From positions 1 to 35,383 of the forward strand of contig JBDKUO010000006.1 in NCBI GenBank assembly GCA_039679645.1: 35,383 nt of DNA. Direction: 5' to 3'. Of this stretch, positions 12,667 through 35,383 are shown in pieces. The position numbers and the translations under genes were made by a program. Source of the DNA: Armatimonadota bacterium (GTDB lineage Bacteria > Armatimonadota > UBA5829). The notes beneath the pieces are model-generated. The model saw nothing but the letters and a program-made list of their open reading frames with translations, was not told the origin of the DNA and did no database searches. How positions within the stretch are numbered: position 1 is the stretch's first letter; the number at the start of each line of letters is the position of its first letter.

Positions 12667-13872
12667 CTACTTCTGATCAGTGTCTTTAATCAGGCTCAAC
12701 AGCACTCCCTGCCCTGGAGCAAGCCAGTCGTGTTCACCGCCCGCGGGATACTCAGTGCCGGTATATTGATTGACCATCATAACCTTACCCGGCCACTTGA
12801 ATATGATGCTGAAGTTGGCCGATTTGTTTATGTCCTTGTTGACCAGCATAACATAAGGCCGGCCATCAGGACTTTCGAACTCGCCGACCAGGAAGTCTCC
12901 GCCTTTTACCTCTTTAACGTATTTGCTTGTATCTATCCCCTTGCAGCTATCAGGCACATTCGGATAGTGGAATACATTGACGCTCTTGAGTTTGGTATAT
13001 GTGGGAGCCAGCTTATGTATCTGCAAGTTTACAAACCGGATCATATCCCAGGTCGGGGTCTTGTGCCCGAACTGGTCTATAGCCGCCATGCGATAGTTGC
13101 CTGCAGGCGGGCAGAAATACGTAAAGTAGGAAATTCCGCGCCCGCCGTATGCGAGTGTGGCATAGACCTGCAGGCTCAGACCCTCCACGGAAGGCTTGGC
13201 ATAGTGGAAATGGCAGTTGCCCAGGACTATATTCATAAACGGAATATTGTGCTCCAGAGATTTTTTTCGCATGATCTCCAGATTTGTATACAGGGTAGGC
13301 TTTACGGATCCGTCGTCATACAAGGCATAGAGGTCGTAACTCAGGTAAGTCGGCTTAACTGTTGATATGAACTTGCCGACATACTCGTCATAATTGCCCC
13401 ACGTAAACTGCGGCAGCAGATTTATGTAGACAAAAGCCTTAGGGTCCTCTTTCAGGATAGCGTTGTTCCAGCGGGCAAGATTGGCATATTCGCCCATACC
13501 AGGCTCATCTTTTACATAATATCCAAAAACAGTAGGGTCGCTGCGAAACTGCGACGTCAACTTCTTGACACGGGCAATTACTTCCGCATCAGAGAGGTTC
13601 GGCTGATTGACATCAAGAGTCGCCTGGTCTATTACCAGGCACTTGAGGCCCACTTTCTTTGCCACTTTCACGTCGTTCGGCACCAAAAAGCCCGCCAGGT
13701 TGAACCCGCAATCTTTTATGTCGCGCAGAGTCTTTGCATCACCCGGGGAGCCGCCCCAGGGCATTATTGCAAAATCTTCAGGATCGAGGTCTGCCTGCTT
13801 CGCAGCAAACGCACAGGCGGACATACAGACAAGAAATACTGCCACAAACATAAACCTTGTAAATCTCTTCAT
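12667..13872 (-). CDS. Secreted GH42-like TIM-barrel protein
   Basis: The 401-aa protein has a signal peptide (cleavage likely after ACAFA, about residue 23). Its body resembles clan GH-A/beta-galactosidase-like TIM barrels: a strand carrying GYYVKDEPG (D122-E123) at a position typical of a catalytic acid, then later barrel strands with GISYFTYFCPP. A C-terminal beta domain (about 320-401) includes PYVMLVNKD. It probably acts on extracytoplasmic oligosaccharides, but neither family nor substrate can be fixed from sequence reading. The gene begins 11 bp after pgi, has GGAG upstream of its ATG and is probably co-transcribed with pgi. It may be a non-catalytic relative. Confidence 0.7.
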   Translation of the reverse strand: MKRFTRFMFVAVFLVCMSACAFAAKQADLDPEDFAIMPWGGSPGDAKTLRDIKDCGFNLAGFLVPNDVKVAKKVGLKCLVIDQATLDVNQPNLSDAEVIARVKKLTSQFRSDPTVFGYYVKDEPGMGEYANLARWNNAILKEDPKAFVYINLLPQFTWGNYDEYVGKFISTVKPTYLSYDLYALYDDGSVKPTLYTNLEIMRKKSLEHNIPFMNIVLGNCHFHYAKPSVEGLSLQVYATLAYGGRGISYFTYFCPPAGNYRMAAIDQFGHKTPTWDMIRFVNLQIHKLAPTYTKLKSVNVFHYPNVPDSCKGIDTSKYVKEVKGGDFLVGEFESPDGRPYVMLVNKDINKSANFSIIFKWPGKVMMVNQYTGTEYPAGGEHDWLAPGQGVLLSLIKDTDQK

Positions 13873-21735: not shown

Positions 21736-24700
21736 TTAGAACTGCCGATATGCGCAGGCAGGCTGCTGCATTATCTGGCCGTTATCTATTTTCTGTTTCC
21801 AGACACTGGTTGAAAAGTCGATATCCGGTGAATGCCACTCTATCTTGTCAGCGCTCGTGCTGCTTGGGTTATACTCGAACACCTCTCCGCTGAAACTATT
21901 GACGCCATCCGTGCTTTTCCCTGAATACGAGTTAGTAATAAGCCAGTTGCCATTTGGGAGGGCATGCACACAGGATGCCCTAAGAGGAACTGACAAGGGT
22001 TGAACGCCGTCGGTGTCATCGTCACGGTCCATGCCTCTATAATCAGAGTCCTGCAGAATATCGACCACATCGGGCGTGCCGGATAACGGTACCCTGGCTT
22101 TATAGACGCCGTAGTTGTCACAGACATATACATATCTGTTGCCGGGAGTATCAACCACTTGGAAATACCTTGGGGTTGCAAGAGGTCGGGTCGTGCCGCT
22201 GAAGTTCATCTTGTCGCAGCCGTATATTATCTGGCCGGAATCTGCGGACGAATAATCCCATGAGCTTCCATCGGCTACTCGATAACGTATCCCCACAATC
22301 GCGCCGCCCAGACCCTGGCTTGTGGCCGTAGTGCCGGTTCCGGTGCGGTAGTTGGAGATGGCCGCCCATATATCGATCGCGGCGGTGCTGCCTGACGCAT
22401 CCGCTACGAGCTGTAGACAGTCGAAGACATAGTTCTGATTGGTCGTATCCGTTGTGGTGACCCAGTTCAAGCGAGGCAGACAAAAGCCGCTTTCCGGGTC
22501 TATATCCGAACTGGTCGCCACGAGCTGGTACGCGCTATTAACCTGCTTGAACCTATATGTCAGGTCCACAATCCGATGATTGCCCGAATCTGCGACCAGG
22601 CAGTGAACCACTTGATAGCTTATCGCATCCGGACCTGTTCCCTCGGTCTCTGTTTCCTGCCAGAGGATTGCATCCGTGGGGCCGTTAAGGCTCGTCGGCT
22701 GGCCCGGACGCAGCAGACGCTTGGGATCGGAGAAACGATCATATAACCATCGGATATACATATAATCATATGGAGATGAAGCCGTTGTCTTGATGCGCAT
22801 CGAGCCGACCTGGGCCGATTTGTCCATGCGGCACACCTGATTGGCGCCGGAGTTTGTAAGCAGCATCTCCCCGGAACTAATATATCTTATCCGGCTTGGC
22901 TTGTTTATCGGACCTGCAGTGGTCGCAGGTTTGCTGTTGAGGCTGGGCGGAATGTGAGCCGGCCAGGTAATTGAATCGGCGGCCCAGCTAAGCTCGCCCG
23001 CGCCGTCAAGCTCCATTACCCTGTTTGTGTCGGCCACGAGTGTCGTTGTATTTGAATACGCATATAGGCCATCTGATTTCGGAATGATAAGCACACCGTT
23101 GGAACCGGCTAACGAAAAATTCGTCTGACTTGAGTCGGACGCAGTCGAAGACTCCTTCCAAATTATCTGGTCGTCACCAATGGGCTTGCCCAGAGTCTCG
23201 CCCGTCTCGGTCTTCATGGCATAGATCGTTCCTGCATCATCCGTGAAATAGACTGCGTCACCTATAACCACAGGCGATGAATGAATTGTCTTGTCGATGG
23301 GATAATACCAGAGCAGATTGTTCCAACCGCTCAGGTCTACGGAGTCGCTTGATCTGCTGGCAGGCGCTGCGCTCGTGTAGGCGCTCAAAGGTCCCCAGGT
23401 CGAAAAGTCGACCGGGACTTCAATGGAATTGTCCAACACCACCCAGACCGGCAGAGAAGGCGACAGGGTGTTGGGAGTTACGCCAATCGAACTATTTAGC
23501 TTCATAGAGCTGAAGTTGTCGATGGTTATGGTCCCCTTGCCATAATCGATCATGGAATGGGTGACAGGTATCTTACTGGCATCCATATTTAACGGATTGC
23601 TGTCCAGCAGGTTCGGCTGCCAGATACTGACGGGGCGCTCGCGGCCGGTGGTTGCATTGTAAAGGCTCTTTGCCTTTCTAATAGGATTGCCGGCGGAGTC
23701 AAAGCCGGCATTTTCAGTGATCCTTATCACAAAATCAGGATTTGCTTTGAAGCAAAGGAGCGCGCCGCCGTCACTGCTGCCGAACTTGCCCGAGACTGTG
23801 ACGAAGAGTTTGTCGCCCGCATAAGCAGGAGAGGACAGCGGCTGCGGGTCCTGCAGCGGTACCCATCCGGAACTTGTCTGTTTCATCACGACACCGGGAA
23901 TGACCATATCCGGAACTGTTGGGCTGACGATACCGGATAATTCAGACTCGTTCGAGCCCGATGCGCTCTGGATAGTAGTTCGCGTTACCCCTGCATGCAG
24001 GAAATAGTTCCATCTGTTCGTCTGCTTTGAAGCATCAATCTGAAGACCGTAGACCGATCCGCCGGGTTTAAGGGAATTAAGCGCCGCCGAATCTCTCTTT
24101 CCATTTATATAGACCATTGCATCTCGGCCCAAAGCAGAGGTGGCCGTTGCCGTAGTAGGAGGCAGAGGAGAATTGCCGCCTGCGGTGGATATGTCAGGAT
24201 CGAGAGGGATCTGAATTCGTGGTAAATATGTAATACCACCGCTGGTAGAGGCGTAGTCTAGGGTGTAATCGGCGCATATGATCACATCACCCGGGACCTG
24301 GCCGCCATTTGCCGTTATGGCGGAACCACTGAGAGTACATAATATACGGCCGGGCGCAGAGCCTTCAGCAGTACTCATTAGATCCGCATTCGGTATTCTG
24401 GATTCTATCATCAGATCGGTTGTGTCATAGTTTTTGATCCATATGTTTGTGATCTGGTCGATCTTCGCAGATTTCACGTTTATCTGACACTGGACCAGAG
24501 AGCCGCTAATTTTTGGTTTCAGAGTGTCATTCTTGATGACCAGAGGTAGGCCGAATACAATATCGTTCTTGGTGGAAATCTTTGACGGCACATTCGTGGA
24601 CCAGTACAGCATGCCGGTGAGAGCGCCGCTGTCTTGGGAGCTTGCATAGCCAAAACCAAGGCCGGAGGTAAGCGTATTTCCGGTATAGACAATACTGGTT

Positions 24701-26313
24701 GACGCAGGATACTCTCTTGACCATTCGCTCTTGTGCTGGTTACTGCCGCCATAGTTGGACTGCAGCACCGGGTTGAGACCATATATATGAACACCGCCGG
24801 TTGCATCGGTGCCCGATCCACCGGCTACATATATCCAGCCGTCAATAAAAAGCGGAGGATAAGGCTTAACACACGTTGAGCCTGTACTCCAAGTGTTGCC
24901 TTGGTAAAGAAGAGGTGTCGGCTCGGAACCTAGACTTGACCCAGACAACGGATATGCGTCCAACACATAAACTGTGCCGTTTGTGGATGCGACCATCACT
25001 GCGTCGACGCTGTTTCCGGGATCATTCGGAGTGCTGGGGTTCTGCATAGTGACGACTACGGGCGAAGAAATGAGGCCGTCGCACTCATACTGCCATATAA
25101 GGTCCTGGCCGGTAGAATCATCCTTGCTGTCGGATCTGTTCATATCCTGTTCGCCGTCATCAATATTGCCGTCGCCGTCCAGATCTTCCTGAGGCTTCAG
25201 ATCAAAGGCATACAGTGTGCTTCCCGAAGAATAGTACACTACGTTCTTATAAATTACTGGTGCAGACTCCACATCACCGGGTGAAGAAAGCGGGTAGGAC
25301 CATATCTTGGCCAACTCAGTGCCGCCGACCGTGTCGATAGAGCTGCCGGAACGCCGTGGGCTTTTCCTTGCGTTTGTCCAGGAAGAGGACAGCGCAATAA
25401 CATTGTAGGCAAACTTGAGGCTGGGCAGGTTATACGGATAGTTCATATAACAACCCCTGCCAACGTAGTCCGCCGTAGCCACAATATATCCGCCGCCATA
25501 TGCGTTAGCCGCAACAGCAGGCGGGGTATTCATTCCGGTGTTCTTGACCACAGGGAACAGAAACTCAAAACTATCCGGGACACCACCGCTGCTATCATAG
25601 CCGGGCCATACGCAGCATTTTCCGGCATTTGAACCGAGTATGGAAATATCCTGGTCGGTAAGCCAGTAGGGAATTGTAAGCAGCGGGTGATGCCGAACAA
25701 ACGCATAATCCACCCCTGCCCCTAATGTCTGACTGAACGTGAAGTCCGAAATGAGAAAACCCGCATTGCCGGTGCTATCAAAACTCAACACGCTGCTTGA
25801 ATCGGAATTATCGACCCACAGTACACCGCCGCCATCAACAAACCTGCGCAGTTTCTCTCTGTCATCACCGCTCAGGCTGACCGCGCTATGAGCAGGCAGA
25901 TACAAAACTTGCATCCGAGAAAGATCGCGGGTGGAATCCAGCTTGACATACCAATAGCTGACCTCGTTCTTGGTATATTTCCTGGCAGTCTTTACTCCGC
26001 TTAGGGTCGAATATGTGCTGCCGGCAAATGGGTTTTCCAGTGTCCAACCGGCAGGTTTCATGCTCGTCAGGTTGTCGAGCAGGTAGAACAAGTCACCGAC
26101 TCCATTGCCCAAGAGATAGCCGCTTGAATCATAGCCTGATTGCAACTCGGTAAGCTGACTGGCCGGGATAGGATCAGAAAGCTGGACCACACCGCAGTTG
26201 ATCTGTTTTCGATTGCCGGAGTAAAGATAGGCGCCTGCATCAACCGGAAACTCTGATGCAACGACACCGATTATGATTGCAAAAAATGGGATAATACGTG
26301 TGAAGTTTTTCAT
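21736..26313 (-). CDS. Giant secreted beta-propeller protein, PilY1-like by position
   Basis: The 1525-aa protein starts with a signal peptide (residues 1 to about 28). Residues about 40-310 look like a flavodoxin/GATase-like domain of the DUF4159 kind (MQVLYLPAHSAVSLS, then RRFVDGGGVLWVD). Two PQQ-like propeller segments follow (about 335-510 and 995-1060; YAFDL and YAMKTETGE strands), with beta-rich domains between. An NHL-like region (about 1130-1525; VADSGNHRIVDL) ends it. A perfect EF-hand loop lies at 377-388 (DLDGDGNIDDGE). As last gene after three minor-pilin genes it sits where pilY1 does in Pseudomonas, though PilY1's N-terminal vWA domain is replaced. I infer a pilus-tip adhesin or sensor. 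An upstream in-frame ATG at 26484 lies inside the previous gene and a palindrome, so I rejected it. Confidence 0.78.
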   Translation of the reverse strand: MKNFTRIIPFFAIIIGVVASEFPVDAGAYLYSGNRKQINCGVVQLSDPIPASQLTELQSGYDSSGYLLGNGVGDLFYLLDNLTSMKPAGWTLENPFAGSTYSTLSGVKTARKYTKNEVSYWYVKLDSTRDLSRMQVLYLPAHSAVSLSGDDREKLRRFVDGGGVLWVDNSDSSSVLSFDSTGNAGFLISDFTFSQTLGAGVDYAFVRHHPLLTIPYWLTDQDISILGSNAGKCCVWPGYDSSGGVPDSFEFLFPVVKNTGMNTPPAVAANAYGGGYIVATADYVGRGCYMNYPYNLPSLKFAYNVIALSSSWTNARKSPRRSGSSIDTVGGTELAKIWSYPLSSPGDVESAPVIYKNVVYYSSGSTLYAFDLKPQEDLDGDGNIDDGEQDMNRSDSKDDSTGQDLIWQYECDGLISSPVVVTMQNPSTPNDPGNSVDAVMVASTNGTVYVLDAYPLSGSSLGSEPTPLLYQGNTWSTGSTCVKPYPPLFIDGWIYVAGGSGTDATGGVHIYGLNPVLQSNYGGSNQHKSEWSREYPASTSIVYTGNTLTSGLGFGYASSQDSGALTGMLYWSTNVPSKISTKNDIVFGLPLVIKNDTLKPKISGSLVQCQINVKSAKIDQITNIWIKNYDTTDLMIESRIPNADLMSTAEGSAPGRILCTLSGSAITANGGQVPGDVIICADYTLDYASTSGGITYLPRIQIPLDPDISTAGGNSPLPPTTATATSALGRDAMVYINGKRDSAALNSLKPGGSVYGLQIDASKQTNRWNYFLHAGVTRTTIQSASGSNESELSGIVSPTVPDMVIPGVVMKQTSSGWVPLQDPQPLSSPAYAGDKLFVTVSGKFGSSDGGALLCFKANPDFVIRITENAGFDSAGNPIRKAKSLYNATTGRERPVSIWQPNLLDSNPLNMDASKIPVTHSMIDYGKGTITIDNFSSMKLNSSIGVTPNTLSPSLPVWVVLDNSIEVPVDFSTWGPLSAYTSAAPASRSSDSVDLSGWNNLLWYYPIDKTIHSSPVVIGDAVYFTDDAGTIYAMKTETGETLGKPIGDDQIIWKESSTASDSSQTNFSLAGSNGVLIIPKSDGLYAYSNTTTLVADTNRVMELDGAGELSWAADSITWPAHIPPSLNSKPATTAGPINKPSRIRYISSGEMLLTNSGANQVCRMDKSAQVGSMRIKTTASSPYDYMYIRWLYDRFSDPKRLLRPGQPTSLNGPTDAILWQETETEGTGPDAISYQVVHCLVADSGNHRIVDLTYRFKQVNSAYQLVATSSDIDPESGFCLPRLNWVTTTDTTNQNYVFDCLQLVADASGSTAAIDIWAAISNYRTGTGTTATSQGLGGAIVGIRYRVADGSSWDYSSADSGQIIYGCDKMNFSGTTRPLATPRYFQVVDTPGNRYVYVCDNYGVYKARVPLSGTPDVVDILQDSDYRGMDRDDDTDGVQPLSVPLRASCVHALPNGNWLITNSYSGKSTDGVNSFSGEVFEYNPSSTSADKIEWHSPDIDFSTSVWKQKIDNGQIMQQPACAYRQF

Positions 26314-26320
26314 GACATCA

Positions 26321-26358
26321 ATTCCCCTCATCCCGGCCCTCTTCCGTGATGGAAGAGG
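26321..26358. repeat. Palindromic intergenic element before the giant propeller gene
   Basis: CCTCTTCC (26338-26345) and GGAAGAGG (26351-26358) form a perfect 8-bp stem with a 5-nt loop. On the minus strand it is followed by GGGCCGGGATGAGGGG, a tail resembling widespread REP-like elements that pair a stem with a GAGGG-type end. The GAGGGG in this tail is also the apparent Shine-Dalgarno of the giant gene. Confidence 0.6.
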
Positions 26359-26366
26359 CAGAGGTG

Positions 26367-29168
26367 TTACATTACATCGCCGAAATAGATAAGGCTGCCG
26401 CAGACAGGAAGCCTGGGTGCAATAGGAAGAATGCGTCCGTATTTGTCCCTTCTGATCGGCGAAGTGCTGCTCGTTGTCGTCCATGGCCTCAGGCTCTTAT
26501 AGGGCCAGGCGGCATGATCGTCATAGAGAATCGTAAGCCCCTCACCCGGATGAGCCGTGTGAATACCGGACGAACCATAGTTATCAGGGATCGTGCCCCA
26601 TTTGGACATCCACTCGGTCACATCGCTTACCGCGGCGGGCATGTTTTCACTTACCGCTCCATCTATAGTGACACGGATATCCAGGGGCTGAGCGTAATAT
26701 GGAAATGCATTGCGCGCACCCTCCCTGCTGCCTGTCGAATTGTAGTTGGCCTGCGTATCCGAAGGGTTCGGATTGAACCACTTTCCCGGAATCACAAAGA
26801 ATGAACCATCCTGAGCATAGATCACAGCCTCGATGCGAACATCCATCGGCTGGATAGCAAGACCGCCCAGGAGATAATTCTTATACGTGTAGCTGGTCTG
26901 GTCGAGCGCGAGCATAAGACTGTTGGCCGCCCCCGGCTCGGTGTATAACTTAGCATTCAATGCATCCGTTAATGGAAAAGCCTCGCCGAAATATGAACTG
27001 TCTATACCCCAACCGGATGGATTGAATTTGGGATCGCCTATCCCCCAGACATGCCTGGGAAGCCCATTGCCGGAAGGGTCATGCCCGTACCCACCGAACG
27101 CCCATACCGTATTGAGATAGAGAATACCCCAGCTATCACGTCCCTGGCTGGCGTTGAGCCATGCATTGATATATGAAGTGCCGAACTGGCCCGAATGGCG
27201 CAACAACAGCATATAATTGCTTGGACCGGAGCCGCTGTCGGACTCATACGGGCCGAACTCGAATGACATCTTCAACCGGCTGGCGAGTTCATTGGACACG
27301 ACAACGCTGTTGTCATCATCTATATTATCTCCGACTCCATTTGTGGGCGACATAAACTGCGTTGTGTTGACGCAGACATTCTGGCGCGCAAGCAGAGCGA
27401 TACCGCAGGACTCAGTGTCCGTGCCTGTGCCGCGCCAGGGATCATGTTCCGGAATGGCGACATCCGGTTTACGATATTTAAGGATGTTGCCCTCAATGTA
27501 TATGTTCGAGTTGGAAACCACCGTGAGCTGCGTATTGGGACCCACCATGCCGCGTATACGAATATTACCTTCGGCATAGATCACGCCGTTGCCATCTATA
27601 TGCAGCGTCTGTGAACCGCCTTTTGTATCTGTCCAGTCTATTGTGCGGCCGTTAACGGGATCAGGATATGGAACGGTTATAGTCCTGCCCCAGTCCGGCC
27701 TGGAATAGCCACGCGGATCATGCCAGAGACTACCATCCGTTCGAGTCATGGTTACGTTAGTAGAGTCAATAGTACCGTTACCGTCTAAGTCTGCCGGGCT
27801 GAGAGTGATGACTACGCCAGGAGGAGTATAGAACGGGCCATGCCAATATTTTGACATGCGATTATCGGGTGTGAGCCAGTCCGACCTGAGAGTGTAGCCG
27901 CCGAAGAGAGTGGCGCTCTCATTTTGAACGTCATTGGAGTTGTCGATGTATATACCGCGACCCCAGCCGTATTGCCCGATGTTGACCCAAGACCCCTCTA
28001 GATATTCCCGCGAGCCGGAATTGAGCGTGAGCAGGCGATAACGAGTAGTGGTGCCTGTGGTATCCGAATTGTCCTCAAACGGAAGAGGCGGATCGAGATA
28101 CTTAATTCGCCTGGCTGCCTCGGTTGTTTCCGCGCTGCCGTCGCGCCAAAAGCCGTCGATTGTCCAGTCCGTGAAAGTATCCGAACTGGGGCGACCTGCA
28201 TACTGCGTGACGGTTGTCCCGTTCGGCTCTACAACATTGACTCGGACACCGACCGAGCCGGAACTGCTTGTATATTTTTTGATCTCACCGGAGACCTCGA
28301 CCCAGTCAAGAGGCAGGGTCCCGCTGGTTGAACTTGTTGCGTCTGAGGTCACGGACCGCAGGTAAATATCGACACTCGGATCGGTGTCAGCGCCAGGTAT
28401 GCCGTAAAACATCAGGTTCCCATTTACTCTGATCGGACCTCCGCGCACGCCATAGTTGGATGAAGGCGATTTGCCGAAGACGGAATGAATACCCGGACAG
28501 CCGAGTGTGAAATCGGTGGAACGGTGGTCTTTATTGGTGATGAACCTGAGATAGTCGGTGACGCCTATCGGCTTGTAGGCAGTGATCTCGCGGCGCATGC
28601 CGGTGTTGGCCTGGTTTGCCCAGGTTGTCGGGTCGTCCTCTTCAAAGACTCCCCACCTGCCTATAGATTCGATCTTTATATACTTCGACATCGGGTCCTT
28701 AGGCGTCGGGTTATATGACACACGCAGCAGAAACCGTCCGCCGCCCGACTTGAATGTCGTGTAGCCGCCAGTAGGACCGGCATAGCCAAGTTCTACCGGC
28801 CACCAGGCCCTGGTCCATTTGAAATCGGGGTACTGCTTCTGCTGTGCCAGTTCAGCATTGGAAACACTTTCCGGTGGAACATCGGGGTAAATCGGAACGT
28901 TACTGACGCCGTTGTTATCAGGCTTGGGACGCCAGTCCGCGCCGTCTTCGCTCGATACCAGCATTTTGTCGGCATAGCGAACGCCGGCTTCGGCTATCTG
29001 GGCGACTGCGTCCACATTCGATAATCGCTCAGACCGAAACAGGTTTCGCGCGACCAGAGCGATAAAGACAGCCGATATGACCGCGAGTATGAACATAACC
29101 ATGATCGCGATGACCAGAGTCTGACCGCGCCTGCTTGGTGTTATTCGATTATTTATATGATTAAACAT
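26367..29168 (-). CDS. Very large PilX/GspK-like minor pilin
   Basis: The 933-aa protein has a prepilin-like N-terminus: basic SRRG, then QTLVIAIMVMFILAVISAVF. It lacks the Glu at +5 (Ile instead), as GspK-type tip pseudopilins do. The large ectodomain is beta-rich with segments such as VIYAEGNIRIRG and SNIYIEGNIL, a DUF4900-like beta-helix style. An EF-hand-like loop DLDGNGTIDSTN lies near residue 458; its last ligand is Asn, so it is imperfect. Known PilX and GspK proteins are about 200-330 aa, so this is about three to four times larger. No Shine-Dalgarno supports the ATG at 29168; a GTG at 29180 is an alternative. It lies between the GspJ-like and giant propeller genes. Confidence 0.8.
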   Translation of the reverse strand: MFNHINNRITPSRRGQTLVIAIMVMFILAVISAVFIALVARNLFRSERLSNVDAVAQIAEAGVRYADKMLVSSEDGADWRPKPDNNGVSNVPIYPDVPPESVSNAELAQQKQYPDFKWTRAWWPVELGYAGPTGGYTTFKSGGGRFLLRVSYNPTPKDPMSKYIKIESIGRWGVFEEDDPTTWANQANTGMRREITAYKPIGVTDYLRFITNKDHRSTDFTLGCPGIHSVFGKSPSSNYGVRGGPIRVNGNLMFYGIPGADTDPSVDIYLRSVTSDATSSTSGTLPLDWVEVSGEIKKYTSSSGSVGVRVNVVEPNGTTVTQYAGRPSSDTFTDWTIDGFWRDGSAETTEAARRIKYLDPPLPFEDNSDTTGTTTRYRLLTLNSGSREYLEGSWVNIGQYGWGRGIYIDNSNDVQNESATLFGGYTLRSDWLTPDNRMSKYWHGPFYTPPGVVITLSPADLDGNGTIDSTNVTMTRTDGSLWHDPRGYSRPDWGRTITVPYPDPVNGRTIDWTDTKGGSQTLHIDGNGVIYAEGNIRIRGMVGPNTQLTVVSNSNIYIEGNILKYRKPDVAIPEHDPWRGTGTDTESCGIALLARQNVCVNTTQFMSPTNGVGDNIDDDNSVVVSNELASRLKMSFEFGPYESDSGSGPSNYMLLLRHSGQFGTSYINAWLNASQGRDSWGILYLNTVWAFGGYGHDPSGNGLPRHVWGIGDPKFNPSGWGIDSSYFGEAFPLTDALNAKLYTEPGAANSLMLALDQTSYTYKNYLLGGLAIQPMDVRIEAVIYAQDGSFFVIPGKWFNPNPSDTQANYNSTGSREGARNAFPYYAQPLDIRVTIDGAVSENMPAAVSDVTEWMSKWGTIPDNYGSSGIHTAHPGEGLTILYDDHAAWPYKSLRPWTTTSSTSPIRRDKYGRILPIAPRLPVCGSLIYFGDVM

Positions 29169-29181
29169 AGAACACAACACT

Positions 29182-29237
29182 AATCTGCTTTTTACGCTGT
29201 TTGGTTCAAAGCAGATTCCTCACATTCGTCCGGAATG
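29182..29237. repeat. Compound palindromic element upstream of the PilX-like gene
   Basis: AATCTGCTTT (29182-29191) pairs exactly with AAAGCAGATT (29208-29217). It overlaps a second palindrome, CATTC/GAATG (29223-29237) inside ATTCC/GGAAT. On the minus strand the right half reads GTCATTCCGGACGAATGTG, similar to the widely dispersed GTCATTCC-GGAAT intergenic repeats of many bacteria. It ends just before the start of the PilX-like gene and could be a leader structure. Confidence 0.6.
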
Positions 29238-29264
29238 ACAAACTTGAAACGTCTATAGTTCTGT

Positions 29265-29293
29265 TTCGGTCGCGATCGGATATCGCGCCCGAA
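29265..29293. repeat. Hairpin in the leader between the GspJ-like and PilX-like genes
   Basis: TTCGG-T-CGCGAT and ATCGCG-C-CCGAA form an 11-bp stem with one T/C mismatch and a 5-nt loop. It lies 70 bp past the GspJ-like stop. No U-tract follows on the minus strand. It could be a weak terminator, an RNase barrier or an operator. Confidence 0.5.
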
Positions 29294-29362
29294 CGAGAAC
29301 ATAGAGCGATAAGCCCGCAAATTCTCGATCCAAATAATCAATATAAAATCTCAATTACTAAA

Positions 29363-31177
29363 TCATCTCAGCGCGTTGCGCACTTTGATTGTATTGGTCA
29401 GGTCGACAGAATACGGCTTGGCTGACTCAGGATCATACATCTTCATCTGCAGGTGAACGACAACCGCAGCTCTGGTCCGATAATCGCCACGCACGACGTC
29501 GCCGTCACGATTGAACCGCACTTTGTAGTCGACGCGTATTTTGCCGTAACCCTCGGGCAGGGCCTGGTCGTAGATCGAACTGAAGTACATATAGCCTTTG
29601 TCATAATCGATCTTGTATTGATTAAAACCCGGCTCACCCAGAGCAAAAGGCACACGCTGATAGGCAACCGGGCCATGATCTGAGCTGGGCATCATGTCGG
29701 GTCCAACTACCCTTTCGCTTCCCGGAACGATGGTGGCATATTCTAGATAATTACTGCTGTCGGCGTCAAAAGTGCTAAGCCGCTCATAACGACGGGCTGT
29801 GCCCCTGTCCAATGCATATGCATCCTTGTATCGTGTGTTGATTCCAGCAGGGACGAGGTCACTTATAGATTCATAGTTATCAGGCGTAGGCGGCGTTATG
29901 GCGAAGTTGACCCTGCCGCGTTCCGTGTCTATTGTAAACGCCATCTCACAACCACTGCTGATAGTGCCGGGCTCGATCTTACCGTCTGCCAGGTCCGTCA
30001 GATATTGAGTGATATCGAACGTGGTGGCCGGTGAGGACCAAGTCCTGGCGACGGCATCATAGACTCTCTTTTCGATAACGACATTAGCGCTGCCGCTACC
30101 CAAATTCATTGCGTATTCATTAATGACGGTCGGCGAACTATTCGAATCATATGTGTAGCGGTATACCGAGACGTCGTAATCGTCAGGCATCCAGTAGCCG
30201 TACTCGGCCTGATAGACGGACGGGATGCCATCCGGATACTCATAGCTCTGATCGCTTGAGTAGGTTCCGGCGAAGTCGTCGTTGTCCATCTTTTTATAGT
30301 TGAACATAACACAGGGGGTCAGAGATACCCAGTCGCCACTGCTGTTAGCAACACCCTCTACCAGGTCCTCGTATTTGCCGACTCCGACTATACGAGCCTT
30401 TCGCGCCCATACTTGCCAGAAAGGCTCAGACGAACTGTCCGGATCCGTGCTGTAGAAAAACTTCGGGTCTTCCAAGATTTCTTTGAGCTTCGCGGCTGCC
30501 GCCACTTTATCGGCGCCAAAAATGGTCTTGTCGGAAGGGTCGAACTCGATTCTGTAAAGGACTACCTGATTGCCCTTGCCCGCCTCGACATGATTGCCCC
30601 ATGGCGAGAGCCAGCCGAAATCGGGTCCGGTCGGGTCGTCCGGCCTGGGATTATTATACATCAGGCCAAGGAAATATCTGACGACCTTGGTGTCCGGCTC
30701 CAGCGGCAATTTGGGACGAATCTCGACATCGGTCGAACCGCACACAGGACAACTTGGCTGCGCTTCATCGCCGCGCTCAAAGTCGCGAGGATATCTGGTT
30801 GGATCGGTCGCATCCACTGGATGATCGGGATTATTGCAGTGAGCGATCATTTTGGGAAGGACGAAGTCTATTTTCGCGTTCGGAACGTCCAGATACTGCA
30901 CGGTGCTATTGGACTGAAGTACAGGAATCTGCAGAGGCTGGGCGTTATCATACTCGACGATATCCATCGCCTCGCCGAGATCGCGGCTGATCTGCTCCAT
31001 GGCGAAACGCGCGGCATCCTGCGACTCCACCATCGCCTGGGCGCTGCGGGTCATCTTGAATGACTGCGTGACCGGATAGAGTACCAGCCCCATGAGCACC
31101 ATGGATATGGCAAGCACAACGAGCAGCTCGATGAGCGTGAAACCCCGATTGTAGCGTTGAATTCTATTCATTTTCAT
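29363..31177 (-). CDS. Large PilW/GspJ-like minor pilin with Cys/His insert
   Basis: The N-terminus has a class III prepilin signal: RYNRG with cleavage after G12, then FTLIELLVVLAISMVLMGLV with Glu at +5. The prepilin peptidase encoded upstream should process it. At 604 aa it is much larger than PilW or GspJ (about 200-270 aa). The ectodomain holds C114-x4-H119 and C143-PV-C146-G, a zinc-ribbon-like set rare in pilins. The later IDYDKG (D524) and VDY (D550) pair is repeated in the PilV-like protein. The ATG overlaps the upstream stop as ATGA, so the two genes are translationally coupled. I infer one subunit of a minor-pilin tip complex. Confidence 0.84.
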   Translation of the reverse strand: MKMNRIQRYNRGFTLIELLVVLAISMVLMGLVLYPVTQSFKMTRSAQAMVESQDAARFAMEQISRDLGEAMDIVEYDNAQPLQIPVLQSNSTVQYLDVPNAKIDFVLPKMIAHCNNPDHPVDATDPTRYPRDFERGDEAQPSCPVCGSTDVEIRPKLPLEPDTKVVRYFLGLMYNNPRPDDPTGPDFGWLSPWGNHVEAGKGNQVVLYRIEFDPSDKTIFGADKVAAAAKLKEILEDPKFFYSTDPDSSSEPFWQVWARKARIVGVGKYEDLVEGVANSSGDWVSLTPCVMFNYKKMDNDDFAGTYSSDQSYEYPDGIPSVYQAEYGYWMPDDYDVSVYRYTYDSNSSPTVINEYAMNLGSGSANVVIEKRVYDAVARTWSSPATTFDITQYLTDLADGKIEPGTISSGCEMAFTIDTERGRVNFAITPPTPDNYESISDLVPAGINTRYKDAYALDRGTARRYERLSTFDADSSNYLEYATIVPGSERVVGPDMMPSSDHGPVAYQRVPFALGEPGFNQYKIDYDKGYMYFSSIYDQALPEGYGKIRVDYKVRFNRDGDVVRGDYRTRAAVVVHLQMKMYDPESAKPYSVDLTNTIKVRNALR

Positions 31178-33093
31178 TGTGCGCCTCTTACGAGGTTAGT
31201 ATCCATATCAACATGACGCCAGTGTTTGCCGTCGCGCCAGATTACTCTGGCCATAAACGATGTGCCGATTACGGATATACGTGTGATTGTGTATGTATCA
31301 CTGGTCGGCACTTTAATATCCAAATAATAGTAGCCATCCTCGCCCGGGCTATCTGAGGCCATATCTGATATCTGGCATGCCCTGCCGACAACACGATGCT
31401 CTATATTGTCGGAGGTTGTAACGTATGTATAGTCCACTGAGACGGTCTTTTGGGCATCGCACGGAGCAAAAAGCAGCCGGTTGGGATTGTCTTTGCTAAG
31501 GCAGTAATGGTAGTAATCGATACCTGATTTGTCATAGACTCTCGAGTAATTGGCGTAGGCCTTATTACACTGGACGGACCAGTCACCGTCTGCCCTGTAC
31601 AAAAACCTGAGGTTGCGTCCGCGAAGGTCTATGGTACTGACTTGAATATCGTTGTTGTAGTCTATCAGGCAAGCTATGTTATTGCCGGTCGCCCCGGGAC
31701 CAGGGAGCTTTACCACACCTGTCTTGTAGTCTATAAACTCATCCGTATAAAGAGGTATGCCCTTGCCAGCCACTGTACTCGGGACCCCCACCCTCAAACC
31801 GGTCTTGAGGTCGACTATGAGCATAGAATAGCGTATTGTCAGGTCATCGGCGATGGTAATCTTGCGTCCCAGTTGAGGCCTACCCTCATATTCGCGCATA
31901 AGACCCTCGAAGGTAGGCTCATCGGGGTTATCTGTAGCATCACCGTCTGTGATATCATCCGGCTTGCCTGCATTGAGAATAAACCTCAGAGCCAGTTTGA
32001 CCGGGATATTCCCAGCGCTGTCATCCACATCGGGGACTACTTTATCTTCACGTATTATGCGGGGGTCGTAGATACGATAATCGATACTCGCTTCGATAGG
32101 ACGCTTGCCGTAAGCAGTGTATTCATACCGGTTCTGCGCATTAGGGTTGAACGAAATAATGCCCAGGACCGAATCGGCCAGCTTGTAGGTGTATGGGTCG
32201 GACGTCCACGCGGCGCCTGCGCCCAACGGCAAAAACCCGCGCGCACAGGTATCCGAACTCTCCTGAATGCCGATAACGTCATAGCCGCTAGGAGGGTCTA
32301 TGGTCACTGTCTGCCAACCCGTATCGTCGCCGGCAATTGTGCCGGTCTCAGGCACACGCTGGTCCAGCTTGCTTATTAAAAACGGTTCGCTGGCAGGGCT
32401 GCCGCTCGGCACTACCCAATATGAATAGCTTATGTAATAAAACCTGTTTATACTCGAACTTTCCTTCGGAAATTCCACGTAGAATTCTGACGAACCGGAC
32501 GTATAACGAATCCCATATTGGCCGCGCTTGATAGAGGCGAGATACCCCAGAGCGCTTGCAACGCGCTGTAATGGACCACTTTTTATACTAAGACCGTTCA
32601 GCTCAGTGCCGCTGGTATATACATCTATCGGGCTGAAGGCAAGAGTGTATTTCGAGCCGAACTCGGTACCGCTGCCTGTCTGGAAATAGCCGGGAGCAGG
32701 AATAGAAGTGGTCTCGCCGATGACCTGGCGAACATTGAGCACGTTTCCCCGCTCCAAAACGCCGTCAACATTCATAAACTCGCCAAAAGGTGGGCCTGCC
32801 AGCACGCACGTATTGCGAATTTGAGCGCTGTATCCGGCATTGTCGGCAAAGAATGTGCCGTCTTCTTTAATGGGGATAATACCGGTGGGAAGATTCGCAG
32901 ACATAGCTTTCCAGCGCTCAAGCTCCTGCTGGGCAAGACGTGTGGCGATTGTGCGGCTCTCGGCGGCCTTGACCACGCCAAAACCCGTCGGGAACATCTG
33001 GATAACAGTCATGATCCCGACAAGCAGCACCACCATAACCACCAGCACTTCGACAAGCGATGTGCCTGACTTGTTTCGCAGGATTTTATCCAT
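31174..33093 (-). CDS. Large PilV/GspI-like minor pilin
   Basis: The prepilin signal is NKSG with cleavage after G10, then TSLVEVLVVMVVLLVGIMTV with Glu at +5, as in PilV and GspI. The 639-aa chain is about three times longer than usual PilV. The ectodomain is beta-rich, with a FIDYKTGVVKL segment (D455) followed by LIDYN (D478), and the C-terminal part carries RVIWRDGKHWRHV. These features recur in the next gene, so both may share a module. It opens the three-gene run of minor pilins (V, J, X). GGTGGA lies upstream of the ATG at 33093, and a 157-bp gap with a palindrome separates it from the major-like prepilin gene. Confidence 0.85.
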   Translation of the reverse strand: MDKILRNKSGTSLVEVLVVMVVLLVGIMTVIQMFPTGFGVVKAAESRTIATRLAQQELERWKAMSANLPTGIIPIKEDGTFFADNAGYSAQIRNTCVLAGPPFGEFMNVDGVLERGNVLNVRQVIGETTSIPAPGYFQTGSGTEFGSKYTLAFSPIDVYTSGTELNGLSIKSGPLQRVASALGYLASIKRGQYGIRYTSGSSEFYVEFPKESSSINRFYYISYSYWVVPSGSPASEPFLISKLDQRVPETGTIAGDDTGWQTVTIDPPSGYDVIGIQESSDTCARGFLPLGAGAAWTSDPYTYKLADSVLGIISFNPNAQNRYEYTAYGKRPIEASIDYRIYDPRIIREDKVVPDVDDSAGNIPVKLALRFILNAGKPDDITDGDATDNPDEPTFEGLMREYEGRPQLGRKITIADDLTIRYSMLIVDLKTGLRVGVPSTVAGKGIPLYTDEFIDYKTGVVKLPGPGATGNNIACLIDYNNDIQVSTIDLRGRNLRFLYRADGDWSVQCNKAYANYSRVYDKSGIDYYHYCLSKDNPNRLLFAPCDAQKTVSVDYTYVTTSDNIEHRVVGRACQISDMASDSPGEDGYYYLDIKVPTSDTYTITRISVIGTSFMARVIWRDGKHWRHVDMDTNLVRGAQ

Positions 33094-33250: not shown

Positions 33251-34018
33251 CTAGCCCTTGGTCGGTCGAACTCGCCACTTGCAGGCTTCCACTTTATTTG
33301 CCGGCACGCGTTCCGTGCTGCCGTCGAGGAAGAGCACGATAGCACTGCCGCTCGGTGTGGTAGACGTGCCCGTCTGGTGATAGGAACACCATGTTATGAC
33401 CGTATCGGCAGGTGGGTTCCTGAACTTGAGCTGGCGCTCGTAGTCGTCCTGCTGCTTAGTCTCATTATCTGTTCCTTCATCCGGATGCAGCCTGCTCACA
33501 CCGGTAGTCGAATTGTCGGTTTCGCTTGCCCAGTCAGTGTAATAATGGCGATCAACCGAGCCGCCATTGCTTACAAAGGCTTCATAGCTGTTATATACGT
33601 ATATATACATCGTCGGACTATCCGCGTATGCCTTCTGCGGGACCTTGACTACCGATTTTGTGTCCGATATACTCGATGACGGGCAGTGAAATGCCTTAAA
33701 TGACGGCACGTATTCCGTAAACAGGTAGTTATCGCTCTTTGCGGATGTAAAGTCCACCGCATTGCCTGCAGTTCCTTCATCTATATCAACACCGTTAGCA
33801 TCTACAGCGCCGACCAGGGCAAGCGGATATTTGCGGTTATCGGTCTTAAACATTGCGACAGCCGTGCCTATCTGATGAAGGTTGGACATGCAGTTGTTCT
33901 GACGCGCCCTCTCCTTCACCACACCCATTACAGGAAAAATAACCGCGGCTAAAATTGCTATAATCGCGATAACAGTCAGAAGCTCTACCAGCGAAAAACC
34001 TTTATTTGATGTTCTCAT
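33251..34018 (-). CDS. DUF1559-type prepilin (major-like pilin)
   Basis: The 255-aa protein has a clear prepilin signal, NKG with cleavage after G7, then FSLVELLTVIAIIAILAAVIFPVMG with Glu at +5. A RQNNCMSNLHQIGTA segment and a C-terminal YHQTG-to-FLDGS stretch (the H-X-DG type region) identify the DUF1559 pilin-like family, common in Planctomycetota and Armatimonadota. It is probably the shaft or a pseudopilin assembled by the peptidase and PilC encoded upstream. The start has GCGGAGGTG upstream at good spacing. A TATAAT box and an inverted repeat lie in the 83-bp gap before it, so it may have its own promoter. Confidence 0.86.
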   Translation of the reverse strand: MRTSNKGFSLVELLTVIAIIAILAAVIFPVMGVVKERARQNNCMSNLHQIGTAVAMFKTDNRKYPLALVGAVDANGVDIDEGTAGNAVDFTSAKSDNYLFTEYVPSFKAFHCPSSSISDTKSVVKVPQKAYADSPTMYIYVYNSYEAFVSNGGSVDRHYYTDWASETDNSTTGVSRLHPDEGTDNETKQQDDYERQLKFRNPPADTVITWCSYHQTGTSTTPSGSAIVLFLDGSTERVPANKVEACKWRVRPTKG

Positions 34019-34101: not shown

Positions 34102-35016
34102 TTACGGCGTTATTATGCCGACCCACCAGGACCAGATTGCGCTGAGCTGCGGCGCGGCCAGTATGACCGCAAGAGCCCCGATCACCATGTGCGGGCCGAA
34201 AGGTATCTCCGTCCGCAAGGACATGCCCTTCTTGTCGGCACGGCTCTTCAAGATCAGATATGTGACCCCTACTACGGAGCCGACCATAACCGCGATAAAG
34301 AAAGAGACCAGCGCAGGCATCACTCCCAGCACTGCTCCTACCGCGGCAGCCAGGTTTATATCGCCGCCGCCCAGGGCGCCTTCATACTCACCGTCATCGG
34401 CATCATCCTCAGACTTGCCCCTGGGCCGAAAGACGAAGTAGCCGATATATGCAATCAGATAGAAAACACCTGCGCATACCACCATCCCTGCTATGCTCGG
34501 CAGCATCGGTAGAGACGCGCCGGACGCAGTCGGTATATGCAGCAGCTTGATATCACCGGCTATGATATGGGCAACGTCTTTCAACACCCCCAGAATGAGA
34601 CCGAATATCACCACCTGGTCAGGAATGATAAACCGATCCAGATCAACGAAGAACGCTATGAGCAATGCACAGATAAAAAATGCATATACGAAGACATCTA
34701 TACTAAAACCGTATCTCAAATACGTGCCTACAAAGAGCAGGCCGGTTATAAGCTCCACGGTGAAATATCGCCAACTGATAGGCTCACCGCAATAACGGCA
34801 CTTTCTACCAAGCATCAGAAAGCTCAGCAGAGGTACCAGGTCGATCCACTTAAGTCTGTTGTTACACTTAGGGCAGTGCGAGGGAGGCGTCACGATTGAC
34901 TGCTCCTCGGGAATCCTGTATATACATACATTCAGGAAACTTCCTATCGCCGTCCCGTATATAAACGCTATCAAGATCAAGATTCCAAACCAGACAGGCA
35001 GCACGCTAACCGCCAC
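34102..35016 (-). CDS. pilD: Type IV prepilin peptidase (leader peptidase/methylase)
   Basis: The 304-aa integral membrane protein has about eight predicted membrane segments. Its N-terminal cytoplasmic domain carries the zinc-binding pairs C48-C51 and C73-C76. The two catalytic aspartates are D125 in FVDLDRFIIPD and D219 in GGGDINL (GxGD protease motif). It cleaves the Gly-Phe type leader of prepilins and N-methylates the new N-terminus. It should process the prepilins encoded just downstream. The gene overlaps the end of the PilC-like gene by 11 nt. An acidic insert, SEDDADDGEYEG, precedes the second aspartate. Confidence 0.94.
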   Translation of the reverse strand: MAVSVLPVWFGILILIAFIYGTAIGSFLNVCIYRIPEEQSIVTPPSHCPKCNNRLKWIDLVPLLSFLMLGRKCRYCGEPISWRYFTVELITGLLFVGTYLRYGFSIDVFVYAFFICALLIAFFVDLDRFIIPDQVVIFGLILGVLKDVAHIIAGDIKLLHIPTASGASLPMLPSIAGMVVCAGVFYLIAYIGYFVFRPRGKSEDDADDGEYEGALGGGDINLAAAVGAVLGVMPALVSFFIAVMVGSVVGVTYLILKSRADKKGMSLRTEIPFGPHMVIGALAVILAAPQLSAIWSWWVGIITP

Positions 35017-35383
35017 CTCCGGAAAGGTTCTGAATAACAGCGATCAGCGGCATAAACATTGCAATAACAATGCAGCCTACGATCCCGCCCAGCATAACGA
35101 TCATAACAGGCTCAATAGCCGCAGTCAGACTGGATACGGCCGCGTCGACTTCATCCTCATAGAAATCGGCAACCTTGCTGAGCATTGGGTCAAGCGAACC
35201 GGACTCCTCGCCGATTGAGATCATCTGCACCACCATCGGCGGGAAGAGTTTGCTCTTGCCCAGCGGCTCGGCTATACGGTCACCCTCTCTTATCCTTGCC
35301 CTCGCCTCGAGCAGCGCGTCTGAGAGAATATCGTTCGACACTGTTCCGGCCACCGTCTCCATGGCCTGCAAAATGGCAACACC
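35006..35383 (-). CDS. Type II secretion/type IV pilus inner-membrane protein PilC/GspF (partial)
   Basis: Only the C-terminal 125 residues are present, as the reading frame runs off the window edge at 35383. The sequence (AILQAMETVAGTVSN, then REGDRIAEPL, VVQMISIGEESGSLDPML and AAIEPVMIVMLGGIVG) is the second T2SSF domain of PilC/GspF, with its last membrane segment and a short SGGGG tail. This protein couples the assembly ATPases to the pilus. The upstream remainder and probably the pilB/pilT-type ATPase genes lie outside the window. Confidence 0.9.
   Translation of the reverse strand, partial: GVAILQAMETVAGTVSNDILSDALLEARARIREGDRIAEPLGKSKLFPPMVVQMISIGEESGSLDPMLSKVADFYEDEVDAAVSSLTAAIEPVMIVMLGGIVGCIVIAMFMPLIAVIQNLSGGGG

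Follow-up and report, generated by a model that had tools for sequence, protein, structure and literature searches.

Positions 21736–33093 of the window, i.e. of the whole 35,383-base contig from Armatimonadota (class of UBA5829) analyzed here, probably belong to the operon of a retractile type IVa pilus and encode its tip and priming components, among which a giant secreted protein (propeller 1) takes the slot that PilY1 occupies in other systems. The sequence-only reading from which this analysis started had listed I-like, J-like and K-like minor pilins and a giant protein, in this order on the minus strand and in a non-proteobacterial context; both the ORF list with its order and the context, the source being an armatimonadotal genome, were confirmed.

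The operon and its distribution

According to the ORF lists and profile scans, the minus strand reads, starting at the contig end, pilC (cut), pilD, a DUF1559 prepilin (G), I, J, K and the propeller. The PilC/GspF platform protein (35006–35383; T2SSF 3.5e-28) has lost its 5' part at the contig end (position 35383) and is followed by the prepilin peptidase PilD (34102–35016; A24_N 3e-36, with Peptidase_A24) and by G (33251–34018, 255 aa), in which the profile scan found N_methyl and DUF1559 and which is either the major pilin or a pilin of the FimU/GspH slot. Then come the giant minor pilins: the PilV/GspI-type I (31174–33093, 639 aa, cleavage site G|TSLVEV; TIGR02523 PilV 2e-7 at the N-terminus), the PilW/GspJ-type J (29363–31177, 604 aa, site G|FTLIEL; N_methyl 9e-9), whose gene shares 4 bases at its start with that of I, and K (26367–29180, 937 aa), a GspK/PilX/ComZ-type pilin. 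Propeller 1 (21736–26313, 1525 aa), identified from its ORF, profiles and model, closes the series, all members of which lie on the minus strand. Beyond it, a NifS-like cysteine desulfurase gene (recognized by eye) and other neighbors lie in convergent orientation, which sets the end of the unit at 21736. The extent first assigned to it (21736–33093) was correct as to the ORFs and their internal order, but the unit continues past 33093 into G, pilD and pilC. Elsewhere in the window, a 401-aa ORF (12667–13872, minus strand) between NFACT and PGI-like genes gave no Pfam match at 0.001. The genome as a whole carries 36 N_methyl prepilins at 36 places, most of them of ~230–300 aa and mostly single and scattered, as with the 65–79 reported in Fimbriimonas.

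Many Armatimonadota possess the full operon pilB-pilT-pilC-pilD-G-I-J-K-propeller1-propeller2-pilMNOP-pilQ. Since the window itself ends inside pilC, pilB and pilT, which lie upstream of the unit (pilT adjoins pilC in most loci), were assessed in relatives: PilT of a same-genus relative (L038) scores 499.5 bits with TIGR01420, against the NCBI cut-off of 319.1. PilM scores above its NCBI cut-off as well, the secretin matches the PilQ model at 7e-52, which is below that model's cut-off, and a small STN protein is encoded between pilP and the secretin gene pilQ. The assignments of pilN, pilO and pilP are based only on position and on homology to each other, with no Pfam match. All components by which a type IVa pilus is recognized (PilT; PilB, PilC, PilD, PilM-P and a secretin) are present in the operon. 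Propeller 2 is another giant secreted protein (~1900–2600 aa) with PQQ repeats and two golvesin C-terminal domains, followed by pilM-N-O-P-pilQ in 9/9 relatives examined and also in the window's genome. There the operon is interrupted behind propeller 1; its remainder, propeller 2-pilM-N-O-P-STN-pilQ, is found on a separate contig (C29), with propeller 2 as a 2567-aa frame at about 26.8–34.5 kb (L135:14800–19899 and L136:1–2603), directly before pilM. In another genome (G013) the two halves are parted by just one inverted gene. Where operons are split, propeller 1 remains beside the minor pilins.

A scan of the K alignment over 84,980 species genomes yielded 70 loci, nearly all labelled as Armatimonadetes/Armatimonadota, Chthonomonadia, Fimbriimonadia or rumen Abditibacteriota MAGs, the rest being some untitled bacteria and one WS1 MAG. 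Two MAGs titled Propionibacteriaceae and Actinomycetota (L068, DIVW01000042.1, and L129, SYMT01000298.1) bear the Armatimonadota cassette and are probably mislabelled bins. Of the 251 genomes of the phylum, 179 of which are good ones, K occurs in 240 (175 of the good ones) and the propeller in 222 (162 of the good ones), some of the propeller matches being weak and maybe due to other propellers; within the class the propeller was detected in 25 of 28 genomes. The conserved gene order by which the first interpretation was to be checked does exist: the propeller directly follows K in 54 of the 57 loci with a readable K 3' side, and the order pilC-pilD-G-I-J-K-propeller, seen in five families of the class, persists phylum-wide down to ~26% K identity. 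With the linkage extending across more than 50 loci, we reject a chance neighborhood. The distances of K and the propeller co-vary beyond those of PilC (partial r 0.84, 24 loci), a weak signal that shared fast rates may explain.

Propeller 1, a secreted double propeller

The likely start of propeller 1 is the ATG at 26313, which provides a signal peptide (about residues 1–28) and has GAGGGG just upstream; we rejected a longer frame of 1582 aa from the ATG at 26484, the start of which falls inside K. We found no lipobox. The sequence-only reading had also noted that the N-terminal domain is not that of PilY1, and indeed the region of about 29–325 is DUF4159-like, as are the first 300 residues in 40 of 44 relatives. 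A PDB profile search with this region gave weak matches to the IFT52 GIFT domain (0.05–0.8), consistent with a ThuA/GIFT-type fold but given no weight here; matches to TAL-effector repeats consisted of odd short stretches and were dismissed as low-complexity noise. The rest of the protein (326–1525) was modelled with a mean pLDDT of 85 and pTM of 0.82. Residues of about 326–1089 form an 8-bladed propeller of the BamB/PQQ type in the model, with YxaL (Z 20.5, rmsd 2.3 over 324 residues), Tako8 and BamB (Z about 19) among its matches, and residues of about 1088–1525 form a 6-bladed propeller of the NHL/YWTD type, matching 3no2 (Z 21.3) and Pizza6. Thus, the propeller fold predicted for the giant protein is borne out by the model, but there are two propellers rather than one.

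An EF-hand-like loop, DLDGDGNIDDGE, had been noticed in this protein from the start; it occupies residues 377–388, close to where the first propeller begins, and in the model comes after a strand of blade 1. Loops of the DxDxDG type are frequent among secreted proteins. Here the pattern D.[DN].DG..D recurs at the same place in 35 of 50 relatives (41 of 50 if the pattern is relaxed) and at no other position in those 50 proteins, against 0.003 occurrences expected per shuffled protein. The loop fits exactly the calcium motif 1 of PilY1, Dx(D/N)xDGxxD (PMC13190605).

Comparison with PilY1 and its minor pilins FimU-PilV-PilW-PilX (Pseudomonas, Myxococcus; PF05567) reveals a common gene logic: in both systems a soluble, Sec-exported propeller with this calcium motif and with its own N-terminal domain ahead of the propeller is encoded directly after V/W/X-type pilins (PMC13190605, PMC7541494). 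Propeller 1 could therefore be a true, very diverged PilY1 related by common descent, since it has in common with PilY1 the position behind a PilX-type pilin, the Sec signal, calcium motif 1 and a propeller of the quinoprotein type; the pilus tip would then work as proposed below and only the ancestry would differ. We consider this unlikely, though worth keeping in mind. The profile scan found no PF05567 domain in propeller 1, and PF05567 gave no match in its own genome or in the 151 phylum genomes searched, an absence that is not proven because no control genome gave a match either. The profile matches listed for propeller 1 are BamB, PQQ and designed propellers, and PilY1 (3hx6) is not among these. 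Nor does it stand among the 50 structural matches listed for the model, which we do not take as a sign of its absence. PilY1 has one 7-bladed propeller and a vWFA or DUF4114 N-terminal domain, whereas propeller 1 has 8 plus 6 blades and DUF4159, with the calcium loop near the start of its first propeller. The Armatimonadota system is set apart also by minor pilins of 600–940 aa, by the location of the genes inside a pilBTCD...MNOPQ operon and by the second giant propeller. Because the PilY1 sequence test failed, we do not file propeller 1 as PilY1, although the gene logic is alike.

The similarity of the first propeller to BamB and the position of propeller 2 ahead of pilM-Q could also mean that the two proteins are BamB-like envelope scaffolds, which serve secretin assembly or alignment of the machine and have no place at the tip. 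This is highly improbable in our opinion: propeller 1 lacks a lipobox and, in split operons, stays on the side of the minor pilins, and the large size of these proteins, the calcium loop and domains such as DUF4159 and golvesin look suited to surface functions.

Giant minor pilins and the other pilus-like systems of the genome

The prepilin cleavage site of K, G|QTLVI, is not accompanied by Glu5, a residue absent from K in 58/58 resolved relatives and mostly retained in I, J and G; PilX and GspK lack it too (PMC7541494). The GspK/PilX sequence profile detected in K only a trace GspK match over the N-terminus (E 0.16), and its identity as a GspK/PilX-type pilin is supported by its place, the missing Glu5 and the modelled fold. 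Both features expected of such a pilin are present, i.e. a Glu5-less prepilin site in the third protein after I and J, and a pilin fold with a large insertion. In the model (pLDDT 85.3, pTM 0.87) the pilin helix spans residues 20–76, and the best match is ComZ, the Thermus tip pilin (Z 12.3 over 331 residues), with an rmsd of 9.2, so the domains match piecewise. ComZ is GspK-like and has been proposed to be a tip pilin (PMC6561018). A jelly roll similar to CBM36/6/35 is inserted in the K model at about 610–778 and superimposes on CBM36 (1w0n) with Z 9.5 and rmsd 3.0 over 109/120 residues; a Pfam search with this jelly roll alone gave no CBM match, and the CBM-like module is therefore a match at the level of fold only.

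Pilins with inserted or grafted domains are known elsewhere. In the ComZ-PilA2 pair of Thermus thermophilus, ComZ is likewise a giant GspK-like pilin with a large inserted beta domain, but K adds the CBM36-like module and has a propeller gene next door, whereas ComZ is a DNA receptor and its described partner is PilA2, with no propeller (PMC6561018). The CBM-like module of K also recalls PilABC of Streptococcus sanguinis, where a minor pilin bears a grafted module that binds glycans and is modelled at the tip (PMC9934059); PilABC differs in the concanavalin type of its lectin module, the monoderm host and the lack of a propeller. Two further observations concern the giant pilins: residues ~112–152 of J contain a zinc-ribbon-like CNNPDH...CPVC motif (weak Zn_ribbon_PaaD match, 0.035), and in a UBA5829 bin (L064:887–5518) J and K are each broken into two frames, by sequencing error or decay.

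The window's genome encodes two other pilus-like systems. One contig (C13; L138 with L002) carries a complete T2SS-like cluster running from pilM to the secretin, GspE, GspF, G, I, J and K, in which the pilins are of normal size (I 124, J 227 and K 345 aa) and no propeller adjoins. Another (C33; L137 with L139) carries a third set, pilM-N-O-P-Q-B-T-C, with no minor pilins nearby. Because these systems differ, the giant minor pilins and the propeller belong to one system and are not a general feature of the pilins of this genome. The earlier estimate that the minor pilins are several times larger than usual holds when the C13 cluster serves as internal control. The same cluster bears on the possibility that the propellers are soluble cargo, secreted via the pilus machinery as by a T2SS, with the giant pilins pushing and no anchoring at the tip. 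The I-J-K order and the DUF1559/GspG-like prepilin do resemble a T2SS, the pseudopilins GspG-I-J-K of which share with our set also the Glu5-less K; the propellers bear Sec signal peptides, and a T2SS has been assigned to Armatimonadetes by phylogeny (PMC6668835). However, the operon has a PilT that scores above the NCBI cut-off, its I, J and K are several times larger than pseudopilins, its propellers are linked, and a propeller tied so strictly to K looks more like a component than like a substrate; moreover, the genome's own T2SS-like system manages with I, J and K of ordinary size and lacks an adjacent propeller. We therefore regard the cargo explanation as decidedly unlikely.

A model of the pilus tip

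In systems of the PilY1 kind, pilus assembly is primed by the minor pilins together with PilY1, which then come to lie at the tip, where PilX holds PilY1 (PMC7541494, PMC13190605). By analogy, we propose that I, J and K would form a priming complex in the inner membrane, with K as the topmost pilin above I and J. K is placed there because it lacks Glu5, as do PilX and GspK, and the missing Glu5 has been read as permitting no further pilin above (PMC9934059). Propeller 1, exported by Sec, would dock on K as PilY1 does on PilX, and the growing filament would carry it through the secretin to the extreme tip. Calcium bound in the loop 377–388 may rigidify or switch propeller 1, as in PilY1; contact with surfaces or polysaccharides may be made by its DUF4159 domain and by the CBM-like module in K, and filament retraction would be the task of PilT. 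The least certain role is that of propeller 2, which with its golvesin domains might be a second adhesive or a secretin-associated part. The contact between propeller and pilin, the location at the tip and the ligands are inferred from these analogies, and gene order by itself would fit secreted substrates or assembly factors as well. As for the independent or elaborated PilY1-type tip complex originally envisaged, DUF4159, the giant pilins and the presence of pilT and pilMNOPQ fit it, but there is no sequence match to PilY1. Polysaccharide binding, part of the same proposal, receives some support from the CBM36-like fold modelled in K and the golvesin domains of propeller 2; together with the modular glycan-binding pilins of other bacteria, these modules suggest adhesion to polysaccharides. 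Fimbriimonas ginsengisoli is fimbriated and non-motile, and its pili are thought to serve attachment (PMC4072686).

Full-text literature searches, the coverage of which excluded most subscription papers, returned no description of this complex. Our results suggest that the pilus tip of Armatimonadota is sticky, possibly sugar-binding and calcium-dependent, and either independently built or strongly remodelled. A more specific scenario, which we put forward tentatively and at somewhat less than even chance, is that the phylum evolved its own convergent, calcium-gated, polysaccharide-binding tip from a double propeller that is not PilY1, a ComZ-like giant pilin with a sugar module and a second giant, the golvesin-bearing propeller, linked to the secretin genes. 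PilY1 serves as the paradigm for surface touch and sensing by type IV pili, and a phylum-wide system that shares its gene logic and calcium motif but has another N-terminal domain, other propellers and giant pilins would offer a natural test of what is essential in a pilus tip. It would also provide a testable mechanism and an annotation for protein families from a little-cultured phylum that so far carry generic domain matches only.
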